Both the position numbers and the translations under genes were made by a program. The notes beneath the pieces were generated by a model. It saw nothing but the letters and a program-made list of their open reading frames with translations, searched no databases and was not told where the DNA came from. Shown here piece after piece: positions 3,479 through 8,410 of a stretch of DNA of 10,179 bases. Source of the DNA: an uncultured Chloroflexaceae bacterium (GTDB lineage: Bacteria; Chloroflexota; Chloroflexia; Chloroflexales; Chloroflexaceae); contig CAKZQX010000450.1 in NCBI GenBank assembly GCA_937141995.1, positions 1-10,179 of the forward strand, written 5' to 3'. Every line of letters starts with the position of its first letter. Position 1 is the first letter of the stretch.

Positions 3479-3550
3479 AGACTCGCAGCTTCGGATGTGT
3501 GTTATTGGTGTGCATACTAAACGGCGGAGATCCCACATTTTCCACCGTTT
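3466..3550 (+). ncRNA. diverged copy of the C-loop small RNA, probably inactive
   Basis: This block shares the exact 15-mer TCGCAGCTTCGGATG (3483-3497) with the small-RNA candidate at 5200-5296 (there 5228-5242). A matching AATCTC lies upstream and a terminal hairpin downstream: AAACGGCGG (3519-3527) with CCACCGTTT (3542-3550) around a loop containing TCCCACAT. Three things argue that it is degraded or used differently. The plus-strand stem has a C-A mismatch that becomes an acceptable U·G pair on the minus strand. Only three T follow the hairpin. No -10 promoter sits in the expected place. The strand is given by homology and is uncertain; it may act only as a structure in the minus-strand mRNA leader. 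Confidence 0.4.
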
Positions 3551-3835: not shown

Positions 3836-5140
3836 TTATCGATAGTAAACATTCACTGGGTCAAGTTCAGCCTGGGTTACAATCACACCGACAAGTTTTG
3901 CGTCCAGGTCTGTCAATTGCCGGCGTGCAGTTTGTACCGCCTCCTGTCGTGTTTGTGTCCGTTTTACAACCAGTGCGATACCGTCAACTTGCGTTGCCAG
4001 GATTGCAGCGTCGGTCACAGCCAGAAAAGCCGGAGCATCTATTAGAACGGCGTCGGTCTGTTGTGATAACTGCCCAAGCAGGTGCGCCATCGTGGGTAGT
4101 GCCAGCAACTCAGCCGGATCAGTCGGTAGGGGACCACTGGTCAGCACCTGCAAGCCGGGAATGTCAGTCGCTTGTAGCGCATCTGCCAGGGCTGCTGTTT
4201 GACACAGAATGTTACTGAGACCAACCTCATTTGATAGATTAAACCGTTTATGCAGCATTGGTCGTCGTAAGTCACTATCCACCACAATGATCTTGCGTCC
4301 GGACTTTGCCATCATATAGGCCAGATTGGTGACCACCGTAGATTTGCCCTCACCTGGTTCAGCGCTTGTCACCAGAAGGGTTTGCAGCGATGCCGCGCTC
4401 ATTGTATAGAAAATGTTTGTACGTAAGCGGCGAATAGCTTCACCCTGGGGCGAATTGCCATTAAGAAAGGTCTTGCGCTGCTTTCGTTTAAGCGGCGGAA
4501 TCTTCCCGATCGTCGCCAGACTGGTCGTCTGCTCAATCTGATCGATTGTATGGAGCGTCGAGTCAAGGTTCTCGAAGAGGAAAGCCAGTGATAGACCGCC
4601 CGCCATGCCCACAAACAAGCCCAGTCCGATCAAAAGCATTTTGTTTGGTTTAGTCGGTCTGATCGGCGGGGTGGCCGGTTCGATCAGCGAGATCGCAAAG
4701 GTGCGACCGACCCGTGTTTTGAGACTCTCCGCGATTAGTAACTCCGTCAGAGCATTGGCTGCTTTGGCTGCCAGAACCGGATCTTTGTTTTCAATACTGA
4801 TCTGCATCAGTTCGGTATTGGCCGGGAACTCAATCTTGATCTGCTTGCTCAGATCCGCGGGTGAGCCGGTTATGGCAACCTGTTGTTGCAACTGTCGCAA
4901 CATTGGGTCGCTCGTGGCAATGCTTGCATAGGTATTCATAAGTCGTTCGACATACTGCAATTTGCCGAACACATCGTCATTGCCCTCAAAATTTGTCAAA
5001 ACACGCACCGTCGTTGTTGCAGCATACACTGGCGTTATTCGTTGTATCCCAAGCCAGACAATGATTACGGAAACAACCGTGGTCAAAACGATGATACCGC
5101 TGCGACGCCCCAGGATCTCAACATATGTTCTCAATTCCAT
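3836..5140 (-). CDS. polysaccharide co-polymerase/tyrosine autokinase (Wzz-BY-kinase fusion)
   Basis: This inner-membrane protein sets chain length and drives export of the polysaccharide through cycles of tyrosine phosphorylation. The 434 residues contain a first membrane helix (about 15-31), an extracytoplasmic Wzz region, a proline-rich stretch (PATPPIRPTKP, 155-165) and a second helix (about 168-189). The cytoplasmic kinase follows: EAIRRLR (234-240), which fits the EX2RX2R oligomerisation motif of BY-kinases; Walker A EPGEGKST (261-268); Walker A' VVDSDLRRP (286-294); and Walker B VLIDAP (365-370). The C-terminal tyrosine cluster is very short, only Y432-Y433, where many members have more. 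The extracytoplasmic part (about 135 residues) is compact. A GAGGT ribosome site is 8 nt before the ATG at 5138-5140. The gene lies between the antiterminator and the sugar transferase, a normal place in capsule operons. Confidence 0.95.
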   Translation of the reverse strand: MELRTYVEILGRRSGIIVLTTVVSVIIVWLGIQRITPVYAATTTVRVLTNFEGNDDVFGKLQYVERLMNTYASIATSDPMLRQLQQQVAITGSPADLSKQIKIEFPANTELMQISIENKDPVLAAKAANALTELLIAESLKTRVGRTFAISLIEPATPPIRPTKPNKMLLIGLGLFVGMAGGLSLAFLFENLDSTLHTIDQIEQTTSLATIGKIPPLKRKQRKTFLNGNSPQGEAIRRLRTNIFYTMSAASLQTLLVTSAEPGEGKSTVVTNLAYMMAKSGRKIIVVDSDLRRPMLHKRFNLSNEVGLSNILCQTAALADALQATDIPGLQVLTSGPLPTDPAELLALPTMAHLLGQLSQQTDAVLIDAPAFLAVTDAAILATQVDGIALVVKRTQTRQEAVQTARRQLTDLDAKLVGVIVTQAELDPVNVYYR

Positions 5141-5164
5141 ATCGGTTTACCTCAAAAGGAGGAG

Positions 5165-5193
5165 TTGGCTAAAAAGAAATGTTTTTGTATAAT
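5165..5193 (+). promoter_or_regulatory. sigma-70-type promoter for plus-strand small RNA
   Basis: TTGGCT (5165-5170, four of six matches to TTGACA) and TATAAT (5188-5193, perfect) are separated by exactly 17 nt. Transcription would start near 5200 and run rightward, away from the kinase gene whose start codon is 25 nt to the left. No plus-strand protein gene follows, only the hairpin-rich RNA candidate ending in a terminator. Confidence 0.7.
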
Positions 5194-5199
5194 GAATCT

Positions 5200-5296
5200 G
5201 CCTCAGTGCTGAATCTCCTCTGGAGTATCGCAGCTTCGGATGCAGATGGGACTGAGCTTTATGGCGAGGAGTGCCCACACACTCCTCGCCGTTTTT
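5200..5296 (+). ncRNA. small RNA candidate A (C-rich terminal loop family)
   Basis: A transcript of about 97 nt would run from the promoter at 5165-5193 to the terminator at 5261-5296. It can fold into an outer stem CTCAGT (5202-5207) with ACTGAG (5251-5256). This encloses CTCC-TCT-GGAG (5215-5225) and GCAGC-TTCG-GATGC (5230-5243), which has a cUUCGg tetraloop. The terminator hairpin carries the loop CCCACA. The TTCGGATG core and the terminator design recur in the other copies in this window. It lies between the antiterminator and kinase genes on the opposite strand, so it would also be antisense to the kinase mRNA leader. I do not recognise it as a known family. Target and role are unknown; pairing through the C-rich loop is a guess. 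Confidence 0.65.
5261..5296 (+). terminator. intrinsic terminator of small RNA A
   Basis: GGCGAGGAGTG (5263-5273) pairs perfectly with CACTCCTCGCC (5280-5290) around the loop CCCACA, and TTTTT follows at 5292-5296. On the minus strand the hairpin is followed by ATAAAG, so it is a good terminator only for rightward transcription. Confidence 0.85.
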
Positions 5297-5305
5297 GATA
5301 AGTGA

Positions 5306-5404
5306 CAGGCGTTACACGGTAGCCATGCAAACCGAACATTTGATCAGACCAAAGGCAACTGGCGGCGCATCCCAACCGCCGGCTGGATGACCGCGTATGT
5401 CCTG
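5306..5404. mobile_element. MITE-like element A (99 nt), left unit of a tandem pair
   Basis: The left end CAGGCGTTACACGGT (5306-5320) and right end ACCGCGTATGTCCTG (5390-5404) are imperfect inverted repeats of the same 15-bp type. TAAGTGA (5299-5305) precedes it and TAACTGA (5405-5411) follows, a 7-bp direct repeat with one mismatch that looks like a target duplication. The inside has a GGCGG/CCGCC hairpin and no transposase. It is non-autonomous, if mobile at all. Confidence 0.65.
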
Positions 5405-5411
5405 TAACTGA

Positions 5412-5557
5412 CACGCGTTACGTGGTTGGTTCATCAAACCGGGCGTTCCACCCGGTGAACGGCCAACGTCGCCTGCTCCGTAATTTACCTGCCCGCAGGC
5501 GAAGCCGGCGTTTGGGGTCGGCACCATGCCGGAACAGTCCGCACCGCGTAACTCCTG
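5412..5557. mobile_element. MITE-like element B (146 nt), right unit of a tandem pair
   Basis: The ends are CACGCGTTACGTGGT (5412-5426) and ACCGCGTAACTCCTG (5543-5557), inverted copies of the same family as its neighbour. It shares the TAACTGA junction (5405-5411) and has an exact second TAACTGA on its right (5558-5564). The right ends of A and B, with junctions, match at about 20 of 22 positions. The interior has several nested GC-rich hairpins, for example GCCTGC/GCAGGC and CCGGG/CCCGG, and no transposase. A minus-strand frame crosses both elements and repeats QLQELRG/QLQDIRG, but this only reflects the DNA repeat. Confidence 0.65.
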
Positions 5558-5633
5558 TAACTGATATACATTACCCGCTAGGCTCACCCGTCAGACGTAT
5601 AATTAGACGAAAAACAGGCATACTTGCCGCCAG

Positions 5634-6242
5634 TTACTTTTTAATCCACCGCCCACGCCCCCGCGTTCGCCGTTCACGCTTCTGTGGGACATTTTCACTG
5701 CTCGTTTCCAATAAGTTACGATCTACTTCCAGTTCATTCAGCCGACCCATGAACTCCAGTAGGATACGTACACGCCGGCTGGGGGTGATCGGCCCGACGA
5801 AGATTGCTTCCAGTCCACGCAGCGGCCCGCGTCTGAACTGTACGGTATCACCGGGCTGAAATCCGTGTTCCGGCAGGCCCCCTTGCTCATTGCAACATTC
5901 CACCTGTGTGTGAATTGCCTGCACCACCGCTGCCGGGATCTTCTGAGGTGTGGTGTCGAATGTCACTAACCGTGTCACACCCGGGGTTGCATTGATCCGG
6001 CTTGGTGGGACGGTGTGCAAGTCTATCTGTGCAAAGAGATACCGTGGAAACAGGGGGGCGTGTTGGATCTGTCCCTGGTAATAGCACATCACCTCGGGCA
6101 CATAGACTGTCAGGCCGAACTGTTCTTGTAAGGCCAGGGCTGCATAGCGCTCCTTGTGCGGCCGGCAGTGGACGACATACCATGCGTTGTGTCGGACCAG
6201 GTTTGTTACAGATTGCATCTCCTTCGGGTGCCGAGCCAACAT
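5634..6242 (-). CDS. NusG-family specialised antiterminator (RfaH/LoaP-like)
   Basis: This is a 202-residue paralogue of NusG that would bind RNA polymerase and suppress pausing or termination in the downstream polysaccharide operon. The N-terminal NGN domain starts with WYVVHCRPHKERYAALAL (21-38) and continues through VYVPEV (46-51) and PLFPRYLFAQID (63-74) to about 113. The C-terminal KOW domain is FQPGDTVQFRRGPLRGLEAIF (128-148) with a beta-rich remainder ending at DRNLLE (174-179). A basic tail rich in K and R follows (188-202). House-keeping NusG usually lies beside secE and rplK; here the neighbours are capsule genes, which favours a specialised factor. The start ATG (6240-6242) has AGGAAGGA about 10 nt upstream; a second ATG eight codons later has a ribosome site too close to it. 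Whether it is closer to RfaH, LoaP or UpxY cannot be settled by eye. Confidence 0.9.
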   Translation of the reverse strand: MLARHPKEMQSVTNLVRHNAWYVVHCRPHKERYAALALQEQFGLTVYVPEVMCYYQGQIQHAPLFPRYLFAQIDLHTVPPSRINATPGVTRLVTFDTTPQKIPAAVVQAIHTQVECCNEQGGLPEHGFQPGDTVQFRRGPLRGLEAIFVGPITPSRRVRILLEFMGRLNELEVDRNLLETSSENVPQKRERRTRGRGRWIKK

Positions 6243-6753
6243 CGTAGGGTGTTCCTTCCTGGTTCAATTGATAATCCTGAAGGTGTGATATGGCATGTGA
6301 TATGCCTTTCCGTTAATCGCCGCCTGTTGCTCGTCTCATCACTGTTCGTTATCCAGAATGTTCGTTATCCGGGATCTGCGTTCTAAAACCATAGCCGGGC
6401 TATCCGGGCATGCTCTGCCACTCCGGTAGCAAGTATGCCATCGGATATGCTCCGCCACTCTGACAATACATGTCAGATATGGGTGACAGTTATGACACCT
6501 GGTCTGGAGCAATGGCTACAACAAACCAGGATGATGGTATGAGCATAACGGTGTGTTGTCAGGTATGGACGGCGAGATACTATAACGTGACGGCTTATGC
6601 AGCGTTTCCACACTATATCTATTGAATTGGCTGGTGAGGCAAGTTGTATGGAGCTTCGCGTGGTGTCTTGAGCGTCCTTGGCTTGCAATGCTGCTGAGTG
6701 TCTCTTAGTACTACGGTCCCCTAAGAAATTAGTACTTTGAGGTTTTTGCAATG
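6243..6753. other. leader region of the antiterminator gene with short direct repeats
   Basis: I see no credible gene here. Three repeat pairs lie within about 225 nt of the antiterminator start. TGTGATATG occurs at 6284-6292 and 6296-6304 (12-nt period). TGTTCGTTATCC occurs at 6343-6354 and 6359-6370 (16-nt period). A looser pair around ATGCTCYGCCACTC is at 6410 and 6447 (37-nt period). TCTGACA/TGTCAGA forms a 7-bp hairpin at 6459-6477. TTAGTACT occurs twice near 6706 and 6729. No minus-strand promoter with both boxes stands out, although TATAGT-like -10 words occur near 6575 and 6615. A 134-codon minus frame from 6877 has no family features. Confidence 0.55.
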
Positions 6754-6785
6754 ATTTACTCAAGATAAGTAAATTCTGATATAAT
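6754..6785 (+). promoter_or_regulatory. extended -10 promoter with overlapping palindrome for small RNA B
   Basis: TATAAT (6780-6785) is perfect and is preceded by TGA (6777-6779), giving an extended -10 TGnTATAAT. A weak -35, TTTACT or TTACTC, lies 18-19 nt upstream. ATTTACT (6754-6760) and AGTAAAT (6768-6774) form a 7-bp inverted repeat that covers the -35 to spacer region, a natural place for a repressor or activator. Transcription would start near 6792. Confidence 0.7.
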
Positions 6786-6791
6786 GTATAT

Positions 6792-6899
6792 AACCACACC
6801 ACGAATCTACCCCGGATGCTTCTGCTTGCATTCTCGGCGTGTTCGTTGTGTTGGGTCCGCGGCGGAGAGTACCCCATATACTCTTCGTCGCCTTTTTTG
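6792..6899 (+). ncRNA. small RNA candidate B (C-rich terminal loop family, best copy)
   Basis: A transcript of about 107 nt is framed by an extended -10 promoter and a strong terminator. The 5' segment CCACACCACGAA (6794-6805) can pair with TTCGTTGTGTTGG (6842-6854), giving 11 pairs with one bulge and one mismatch. This encloses a small hairpin GGATGC-TTCTGCTT-GCATTC (6814-6833). The terminator follows with loop CCCCATA. The first 18 nt and a 21-nt core (6810-6830) recur exactly at 7037-7079. The differences between the two copies include 4-nt and 2-nt indels, which would break a reading frame and so speak for RNA rather than protein. No Rfam family comes to mind. The C-rich loop recalls multicopy sRNAs that pair with G-rich ribosome sites, but that role is only inferred. 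Confidence 0.7.
6859..6898 (+). terminator. intrinsic terminator of small RNA B, loop CCCCATA
   Basis: GCGGCGGAGAGTA (6859-6871) pairs along 13 positions with TACTCTTCGTCGC (6879-6891), followed by TTTTTT (6893-6898). Two of the pairs are G·U on the plus strand and would be A-C mismatches on the minus strand, so the stem has been kept for a plus-strand RNA. The 7-nt loop is CCCCATA. Confidence 0.9.
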
Positions 6900-7036
6900 T
6901 ATAGCTATTTACTTCACGCGCAGCCTATACCTCAGGTACCATAACCTTGAGGCCTGGCTTATATAGTTGAATATATAGATGTGGTGGGTAGAGCTACAGT
7001 GGTCAGGTAGAGGTAGTTTCATGCAGAGAGTAGAAG

Positions 7037-7139
7037 AACCACACCACGAATCTAAATCCCCCGGATGCTTCTGCTTGCAATTTCTCCGACGTTCGATCTA
7101 CTGGGCAGAAGGTGCCCCATACACCTTCAAGCTCCTTTA
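7037..7139 (+). ncRNA. second copy of small RNA B, decayed terminator
   Basis: The 18-mer at 7037-7054 and the 21-mer at 7059-7079 are identical to the 5' part of small RNA B (6792-6809 and 6810-6830). Downstream the copies diverge, but the terminal hairpin is kept in shorter form: GAAGGTG (7108-7114) with CACCTTC (7122-7128) around the identical loop CCCCATA. The T-tract has become CTCCTTTAT, so termination is probably weak and transcription may continue into the hairpins to the right. No clear promoter lies directly before it. TATATAG words at 6960-6979 are weak candidates. TAGATGTGGTGGG at 6976-6988 is a partial inverted copy of its 5' end and could pair with it. Confidence 0.55.
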
Positions 7140-7154
7140 TCTCACCAGTTGCGC

Positions 7155-7225
7155 TGCTTCACATCGCCCCATACGACGCGAAGCACTACATTCGTTACAC
7201 GTATACCCGGGTGCCCCATACATCC
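7155..7225 (+). repeat. two further hairpins with the identical CCCCATA loop
   Basis: Hairpin one is TGCTTC-ACA-TCG (7155-7166), loop CCCCATA (7167-7173), then CGA-CGC-GAAGCA (7174-7185), with a 3x3 internal loop. Hairpin two is GGGTG (7209-7213), loop CCCCATA (7214-7220), then CATCC (7221-7225), with one G·U pair. Together with 7108-7128 this makes three such hairpins spaced about 50 nt apart, after the stronger one at 6859-6891. The stems differ while the loop is constant, which suggests that the loop is the functional part. Confidence 0.6.
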
Positions 7226-7232
7226 CTGGTAC

Positions 7233-7267
7233 ACATCCTCCTGAAACACCTGGTATCAGGATGTTTT
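7233..7267 (+). terminator. weak terminator closing the hairpin cluster
   Basis: ACATCCT (7233-7239) pairs with AGGATGT (7258-7264) over an 18-nt loop that also contains CCTG/CAGG, and TTTT covers 7264-7267. It is a plausible end for a plus-strand transcript that reads through 7139, but the short T-run makes it weak. Confidence 0.45.
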
Positions 7268-7329
7268 GACTGCGAAAGCTTACACTCCTTCAATGCTGTA
7301 TGACTACCTACTGAAGTAGGGATACAAAG

Positions 7330-7377
7330 AAACCGCCTGCGATAGTCTATCGGAATGATAGGCTATGCAGCCGGTTT
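7330..7377 (+). repeat. long imperfect hairpin (48 nt)
   Basis: AAACCG (7330-7335) pairs with CGGTTT (7372-7377). CTGC pairs with GCAG after one C-C mismatch, then a bulged G is followed by ten pairs from ATAGTCTATC (7342-7351) to GATAGGCTAT (7357-7366) around the loop GGAAT. One inner pair is T·G on the plus strand and A-C on the minus strand. No U-tract follows, so it is not an intrinsic terminator. A compact RNA domain or a REP-type repeat is possible. Confidence 0.55.
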
Positions 7378-7397
7378 ACGGCAATGCTCATTCATCA

Positions 7398-7416
7398 TTG
7401 AAATTTCAACGTTGAA
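7398..7416. promoter_or_regulatory. two overlapping 12-bp palindromes, operator-like
   Basis: TTGAAATTTCAA (7398-7409) and TTCAACGTTGAA (7405-7416) are perfect palindromes that overlap by five bases, and GTTGAA follows again at 7420. Another 12-bp palindrome, AATAACGTTATT, is at 7481-7492. Overlapping dyads suggest binding of a dimeric regulator, but no promoter with both boxes is evident beside them. Confidence 0.35.
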
Positions 7417-7540
7417 GATGTTGAATTAAATTTGTGTACAAATCAGTATAGCACTAATCTGCGTTGATATCAAGTGCTTAAATAACGTTATTGTAAGAGA
7501 AATGGGAGAGACACTGATATAGTTTCTTCATTTTATGTAA

Positions 7541-7735
7541 CAGGACTTACGCAGTGGACGATCAAACTGAGTGTTTGACCAGATGCAAAGCAGATTCGCC
7601 TGCGACAACATGGCACTTTTTTATCTTGTTCACACATATGGTGCATAACGCGCACCATATGTGTGAACAAGAATGGGATTTTTCGCCCTGCCGGAGGCGA
7701 AATTCACTGTCGGGTCAGTGACCACGTAACTCCTG
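7541..7735. mobile_element. complete MITE-like element (195 nt) with 8-bp target duplication
   Basis: The ends are CAGGACTTACG (7541-7551) and CGTAACTCCTG (7725-7735), inverted repeats with one mismatch. They are flanked by the exact direct repeat TTATGTAA (7533-7540 and 7736-7743), which fits an 8-bp target duplication. Inside are TCAAAC/GTTTGA (7562-7578) and a very strong hairpin with 21-bp perfect arms, 7624-7644 and 7652-7672, around a 7-nt loop. A 7-bp TTTCGCC/GGCGAAA hairpin follows at 7681-7702. There is no open reading frame for a transposase, so movement would depend on an enzyme elsewhere. The end type matches the elements at 5306-5557. Confidence 0.8.
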
Positions 7736-7743
7736 TTATGTAA

Positions 7744-8410
7744 GGCGAGTTTTCAGTATGTGTTCAGTTATTCCCACCATTTCTCAACCGATTATATAGG
7801 TCAGGATACGACTCGTATAATCGCGTCTTCGCCGTCGTATGACCGCTTCTCTGCGGCAGAAAGTTTGCGTCTGACGGCGCGACACTTAGGATTTTCAAAA
7901 CAAAAACCGGGTGTACAGTAAGGAAAGTATACTGGATAGCCGGTCTGCGAAATGTTCTATATAATACCCCATTGGTTATGTCGAAGTGTTGGGAGTTTAT
8001 GGGGTGTGTTGGTTATATAGTATAGCAACATGGGTAAGAAAGATCAAGTTACAAACCAGTTAGGCAATTTTGATAGGATGTAATAGTACACGGGTACTCG
8101 CCGCTATCTCTCCTGATAATTGATATACAACTGACACGCTGTTCTGTAAACAGATGACAAGTTATGAAGCGGCTAACATCATAAAGACCTTTTAGGATAT
8201 TGCCAATAGTGTAAAAGGTTTTCAGGGGAGTCTATCTGGGATTATAGAGACTCACCAGAGCGAGATAATATAAAAAAACTGTTATGTAGTAATTCTGCTC
8301 AATCTGTTTGTAATATCACGTCGAGAATTCGGTGGTTACTGTCGAATATTTTTCCTTCTGCTGGCATGGTATGTTAAAAACCGGTTACCTGTGGAGTCAG
8401 GACGGTGAAT
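7744..8410. other. gene-free AT-rich stretch with scattered hairpins
   Basis: I see no gene in these 667 nt, which lie downstream of the wecA-like gene. ATACGAC/GTCGTAT (7806-7842) spans a lone TATAAT (7816-7821) without a good -35. CGCCGTC (7830-7836) pairs with GACGGCG (7873-7879) around an inner CCGC/GCGG hairpin, a possible structured RNA. ACCTTTTA (8187-8194) pairs with TAAAAGGT (8212-8219) with an inner TATTG/CAATA. GAGTCT/AGACTC lies near 8229-8253. GCCGCT (8100-8105) could pair with AGCGGC (8168-8173). A strong terminator for the wecA-like gene is not obvious. Confidence 0.5.

Follow-up and report, generated by a model that had tools for sequence, protein, structure and literature searches.

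Predicted small RNAs with C-rich terminator loops, and one loop kept on varying stems, opposite a polysaccharide operon in an uncultured Chloroflexaceae bacterium

Why should a polysaccharide locus whose identified protein genes all lie on one strand carry, on the other strand, a set of strong hairpins tipped by C-rich loops? The question is raised by a stretch of 10,179 nucleotides (nt), referred to here as the window, which is one contig (CAKZQX010000450.1) of the 5.4 Mb, 86% complete genome of an uncultured Chloroflexaceae bacterium. Five elements are at issue. Two units on the plus strand, A (5200-5297) and B (6792-6899), are each predicted to be a small RNA made up of a long 5' hairpin and a terminator hairpin, with starts inferred from their -10 boxes; C (7037-7137, plus strand, from alignment and folding) is a partial copy of B; and D1 (7155-7185) and D2 (7202-7232) are hairpins only. 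The observation is real and lies above chance in its loop and terminator parts, and A and B are well supported, as predictions, as small-RNA genes with C-rich terminator loops.

The heptamer CCCCATA occurs four times within 350 nt of the plus strand, at 6872, 7115, 7167 and 7214, and once on the minus strand (7998-8004), a total of at least five copies being reached in 1 of 200 shuffles. All four plus-strand copies are hairpin tips and belong to the strongest 0.02 to 0.6% of the apex positions on that strand of the window. Their summed apex energy is -50.8 kcal/mol, against -14.5 for the next 7-mer in the window with three or more plus-strand copies and -26.2 kcal/mol for the best 7-mer with at least three copies in 300 shuffled windows. 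The initial annotation had described stem sequences that differ around kept loops, and this is borne out: CCCCATA is constant, while in the stems of A, B, C, D1 and D2 compensating changes on both sides affect 11 of 12 pairs (A included), and 81.7% of the cells pair, a value reached in none of 500 shuffles and approached in slid controls to 53.3% at most. Covariation is accordingly present among paralogous stems within the window. The shuffle control for it does not keep the relatedness of the copies, the four CCCCATA rows were collected by their loop sequence, and the row of A was selected for a C-rich loop together with a hairpin.

Two units with perfect TATAAT boxes and U-tract terminators had been proposed, and by promoter and terminator scans and by reading both A and B qualify. 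A is preceded by a predicted promoter, TTGGCT-17-TATAAT (5165-5193, plus strand), with 10 of 12 consensus bases, and B by an extended -10 box, TGaTATAAT, read from the sequence (6777-6785, plus strand), with no -35 element that passed the promoter scan. The terminator scan placed a hairpin of 13 pairs with the loop CCCACA and a U tract at the end of A (5261-5292, plus strand), and one of 13 pairs with the loop CCCCATA (6872-6878), followed by CTTTTTT, at the end of B (6859-6891, plus strand). The predicted RNAs of about 100 and 108 nt fold at -47.0 kcal/mol for A (5197-5297, z -5.22) and -43.2 kcal/mol for B (z -5.18), and in neither case was any of 200 shuffles as good. The 5' part, initially described as multibranched, is predicted in each unit as a single long irregular hairpin (58 nt in A, 61 nt in B), and the GGATG sequence held to be a common core occupies opposite arms of it, at 5238-5242 on the 3' side in A and at 6814-6818 on the 5' side in B. 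No direct repeat reaching 12 nt was found between A and B or C, and A is tied to the other elements only by its layout and similar loop. An exact 15-nt direct repeat, TCGCAGCTTCGGATG, occurs in the body of A (5228-5242) and in the gap before the sugar transferase gene (3483-3497), where the surrounding fold is ordinary (z 0.24).

Terminators with at least 12 unbroken pairs and a U tract are found at two distinct sites in 5141-8410, and one or more such sites arose in 13 of 1000 shuffled regions; with looser criteria there was no clear excess of promoters (9 against 5.2 expected) or of terminators (5 against 2.9 expected). Strong folding alone is not special here, because it is matched elsewhere. 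A sliding scan of 403 positions per strand, with 60 shuffles each and without B being sampled in register, gave z -4.8 for A, and equal or stronger values at other places on the plus strand (7601-7708, z -7.6; 6376-6483, z -5.3). It is the joint occurrence of box, folded body and terminator that is special.

Among A, B and C, only B and C resemble each other in sequence, with 18 nt and 21 nt identical apart from a 4-nt insert and divergence afterwards. On reading the sequence, no TATAAT is present just upstream of C; its fold is weak (z -1.54) and its U tract is broken. In its 5' hairpin the partner strand has changed, breaking 6 of 12 pairs, and in the terminal stem 4 of the 13 pairs differ from those of B on both sides and 4 depart. 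The hairpin of C (7103-7133), identified by hairpin-apex folding, presents CCCCATA on the plus strand and TATGGGG on the minus strand. C is most plausibly a duplicate of B whose gene features have been lost, at least on the plus strand. The terminal loops were thus correctly described, as CCCCATA in B and C and CCCACA in A. Of the three blocks said to follow one design, A and B agree in layout, with box, long 5' hairpin and terminator, and C departs from it by its missing box, broken U tract and weak fold. The proposed multicopy family has weaker support: B and C go back to a duplication, A is joined to them by layout and a similar loop with almost no body sequence in common, and D1 and D2 are bare hairpins.

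The protein genes identified from open reading frames and domain profiles lie on the minus strand: a UPRTase, a GT4 phosphosugar transferase, an RfaH-like paralogue of NusG (5634-6242; 96.1 bits with the RfaH model, below its cut-off of 144.5), a chain-length determinant fused to a tyrosine autokinase (3836-5140), a sugar transferase, a GFO/IDH/MocA oxidoreductase and a DegT aminotransferase, together indicating a polysaccharide locus. The hairpins and units occupy the two gaps that flank the NusG paralogue, 5141-5633 and 6243-8410. A lies between the autokinase gene and the paralogue, and the presumed leader of the paralogue contains B, C, D1 and D2. A promoter-like site with TG, TTGATA-17-TATACT (7445-7473, minus strand), is a candidate for the leader start, although the class of sites to which it belongs shows no clear enrichment.

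The two strands of these hairpins are not equivalent. Predicted energies on the plus and minus strands, respectively, are -24.2 and -25.2 kcal/mol for A, -20.3 and -14.5 for B, -13.6 and -16.6 for C, -10.2 and -20.1 for D1, and -9.1 and -17.1 for D2, the weakest of the five; D1 and D2 carry the loop TATGGGG on the minus strand. By these values B clearly prefers the plus strand and D1 and D2 the minus strand, and A and C prefer neither clearly. This suggests an assignment of ligands to the plus strand (A, B) and of receptors to the minus strand (D1, D2, perhaps C), the preferences of B and of D1 and D2 being those expected if B is a ligand and D1 and D2 are receptors.

We tentatively propose, as a possible rather than a probable account, that A and B are antisense RNAs controlling the leader of the polysaccharide operon by loop kissing. 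Both would be transcribed opposite the operon and ended by intrinsic terminators, and their terminator loops, CCCACA and CCCCAUA, would be their working part. In the leader RNA that precedes the RfaH-like gene, these loops would first kiss the UAUGGGG loops of the B site, C, D1 and D2, pairing would then spread at the cognate site, and termination or stability of the leader, and through it polysaccharide output, would come under control. The computation supports the gene-like build of A and B, a loop that stays fixed as the stems vary, placement on the antisense strand and the complementary tips; transcription of both strands, the kissing and the effect on expression are what we infer. The only UAUGGGG copies on the minus strand of the window are the tips of these four hairpins (B site, C, D1 and D2). 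The loop of B is complementary by sequence at 7 of 7 positions to those of C, D1 and D2 on the opposite strand, and a 7-base-pair (bp) duplex of CCCCAUA with UAUGGGG is worth -9.8 kcal/mol. The most elaborate version, a local RNA circuit in which two small RNAs and a series of leader hairpins bear the same 7-nt loop in complementary form, so that loop kissing reaches several sites of one leader, with stems free to drift, and control both the RfaH-like regulator and the operon, appears distinctly improbable.

Several observations weigh against antisense kissing. Complementarity of the loops proves nothing by itself, because the opposite strands of any palindrome give complementary loops for free. 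The loop of A can form no more than four pairs with UAUGGGG (-6.0 kcal/mol). The division between the strands is blurred by C, slightly better on the minus strand, and by A, about equal on both, and it could be due to chance. The UAUGGGG on the plus strand at 7998-8004 falls outside the model. To these must be added the outcome of searches for relatives with two models, one of the five window hairpins, which match it by construction, and one of B and C. Further copies in related genomes, which the initial annotation had led one to expect, did not appear: the B/C model, applied with stricter filters to 158 genomes of the class and 400 of the phylum (overlapping sets), matched only B and C themselves. 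A DNA search of 158 genomes gave no convincing relative of A. The best match of the five-hairpin model outside the window, among sets of 41 and 158 genomes, was an unrelated hairpin in genome G015 with 30.0 bits, above the 29.6 bits of D2. Nor was a C-rich-loop hairpin with a U tract found at the loci of the six nearest NusG paralogues, which are 39 to 60% identical (G011 at 60%, then G021, G054, G016, G009, and G018 at 39%).

Other searches filled in this picture. The five-hairpin model found no further copy in the source genome, returning only its five training hairpins, with scoring that was partial (150 of 390 and 46 of 381 candidates) and could miss weak copies. The pattern CCCCATA-N8-16-TTTTT matched B alone in that genome, against three matches of the backward control. 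Of the candidates rejected, the G015 hairpin lies between two convergent frames, overlapped by shorter frames, and has no U tract; the next matches of the model had 27.3 bits, with a T run on the 5' side, and 26.2 bits; two weak matches to A consisted of a short stem without a U tract and of part of the body only; and the best outside DNA match of 6770-7240 among 41 genomes lay inside a frame of 349 amino acids. An 18-mer from the block shared by B and C was found in 10 stretches of general genome contigs, about the number estimated by chance and none in a record titled as Chloroflexota, and gave no match in viral contigs; plasmids gave no match either. Among ten related loci scanned, two more distant ones had three 7-bp hairpins with a CCC loop and at least five T in nine bases (two at one locus and one at the other), in each case with no continuous U tract. 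A pattern scan of general genome contigs for the NusG paralogue yielded none that was confirmed. The single sister genome of the same genus had neither the hairpins nor a NusG-domain match, and the latter absence may be a gap in search or assembly, because the housekeeping NusG, too, went undetected in it. Rfam 15, up to an E value of 1, gave one match (7623-7674), with 24 bits against a gathering score of 80, and nothing above chance. No title on small RNAs of Chloroflexota was among the matches listed in one literature search. Within the reach of the searches the elements occur in this single, incomplete genome alone, and every functional claim is limited accordingly; family and mechanism would be local, and both are unproven.

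How else might the same hairpins be explained? The initial annotation had the C-rich loops pairing with ribosome sites, and it is rather unlikely that A and B are trans-acting RNAs of the LhrC kind, whose loops would bind G-rich ribosome sites or starts (UAUGGGG, UGUGGG) of mRNAs elsewhere. Their general design is that of LhrC, in which a CU-rich loop A and the terminator loop act on the Shine-Dalgarno region of lapB, as set out in PMC4132741. By reading, both loops complement a start codon followed by Gs (U-AUG-GGG, U-GUG-GG), yet UAUGGGG is absent from all seven start contexts (six genes) inspected in the window, which gives the proposal no local support. A pairing of A with the GFO/IDH/MocA start at -11.0 kcal/mol involved stem bases, had no control and was not used. 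A different analogy would make the minus strand the working one, with the hairpins as leader signals bound or sensed by the RfaH-like NusG paralogue or by the polymerase, as with LoaP, whose antitermination requires a leader RNA hairpin according to PMC12691694. The gene of the paralogue lies just downstream, and the minus strand gives the better fold for D1, D2 and C; B, however, folds worse on it, the promoter box and U tract of A and B belong to the plus strand, and the six paralogue loci without a C-rich-loop hairpin and U tract offer no parallel, G-rich-loop hairpins not having been searched there. The ops-like pattern of RfaH, GGCGGTAGNNTG, is no commoner than chance, with 6 sites of at most two mismatches against 8.36 expected and none in 6243-8410. 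We consider such leader signals unlikely.

Neutral processes are a possible source of the whole arrangement, to be taken seriously: two unrelated terminated transcripts or stray terminators would have come together with a decaying local duplication, and the arms would be matched by template-switching correction, not by selection. Nothing alike was met outside this genome in the searches, C looks decayed, and near-perfect palindromes with arms that vary from copy to copy are numerous in the genome, as in 14 of 20 examined copies of a dispersed element, so that template-switching correction may act on the present stems too. What neutrality leaves unexplained is the identity of the loop in four copies, since the arms differ and the loop would be unconstrained. 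A small coding repeat, for which a frame that reads PGCFCL and, further on, (A/T)PYT in B as well as in C might speak, is very improbable. The frames 6784-6966 and 6979-7269 are open and have residues in common where the DNA is identical; yet neither matches a Pfam or NCBIfam family, on which ground the coding reading was rejected, the ATG of B shares bases with the TATAAT box and lacks an evident ribosome site, and the differences between B and C preserve stem pairing. The earlier statement that the plus strand has no protein gene can be upheld for these two frames, the check having covered B and C.

Some further features of the locus deserve mention in their own right. The dispersed element has copies in the window at 5390-5586 and 7624-7736 and further copies in the same genome (L111 to L130), and 5493-5586 has at least 40 matches there, its own included, with 40 of 432 candidates scored. 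In the 14 copies referred to above, the conserved part is preceded, at a distance of 17-29 nt, by a perfect hairpin; its stem measures 12 bp or more (21-25 bp in 12 copies) and varies in sequence from copy to copy. A similar layout is seen in the window, where a perfect 21-bp hairpin (7624-7672) precedes a 16-nt piece of the repeat. Copies of the element also lie alongside a second NusG paralogue, 32% identical, on another contig of the genome (C980). The strong fold at 6376-6483, upstream of the NusG paralogue and outside the blocks first described, is seen on the minus strand as well (z -3.4), and a long near-perfect hairpin at 7320-7385, upstream of D2 on the minus strand, folds at -26.9 and -25.0 kcal/mol on the two strands. 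The sequence AGGACTTACGCAG at 7544-7556 resembles what we take to be an insertion-sequence end.

If A and B are transcribed, RNA control would be linked to a polysaccharide operon that already stands out by its RfaH-like factor, and an identical loop repeated on different stems would reveal which part of such an RNA selection acts on. If the arrangement is neutral, the locus warns that covariation can be mimicked by palindrome correction.

Comparison with known systems places these elements among several types of regulatory RNA. The copies of LhrC are alike over most of their length and the loops of CcsR are C-rich; here only B and C share a 5' block. LhrC1-5 of Listeria monocytogenes are similar in having several copies, stem-loops and a C-rich motif in the terminator loop, and differ by CU-rich sites that are also in loop A and in the linker (PMC4132741), whereas here the terminator loop alone is common. 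Unlike in LhrC, the UCCC motif is missing from the CCCACA and CCCCATA loops, A has almost no body sequence in common with B, and two of the five elements are hairpins only. As a separate gene with promoter and intrinsic terminator, in the manner of LhrC, A is complete, B has the extended -10 box only for its promoter, and C, D1 and D2 fall short. CcsR1-4 of Rhodobacter sphaeroides are likewise homologous small RNAs encoded as a set, but are processed from the ccaF1 transcript (PMC8307010), whereas A and B have -10 boxes of their own and the plus-strand frames tested, those over B and C, belong to no gene family. The LoaP system of the dfn operon resembles this locus in combining a NusG paralogue with a leader hairpin at a biosynthetic operon, and its hairpin is of the UNCG type (PMC12691694), compared with the UAUGGGG loop of the hairpins described here; the present paralogue reaches 46.1 bits with the LoaP model, short of the cut-off of 125. 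Closer to the proposed antisense kissing is asSuGR of the Porphyromonas gingivalis K-antigen locus, likened here by its description in PMC8757827: an antisense RNA within a region of inverted repeats close to where a polysaccharide operon has its 5' end, 550 nt long and a single unit, compared with two units of about 100 nt and repeated hairpins with the same loop. In ColE1, RNAI and RNAII are sense and antisense RNAs whose hairpins meet loop to loop, three hairpins serving the control of plasmid replication (PMC9458437), whereas here a single loop recurs on stems that differ; loops complementary between the two strands are found for B with C, D1 and D2, and in part for A. By analogy, asSuGR (PMC8757827) and RNAI/RNAII (PMC9458437) may serve as precedents in kind for antisense kissing at a polysaccharide operon leader.

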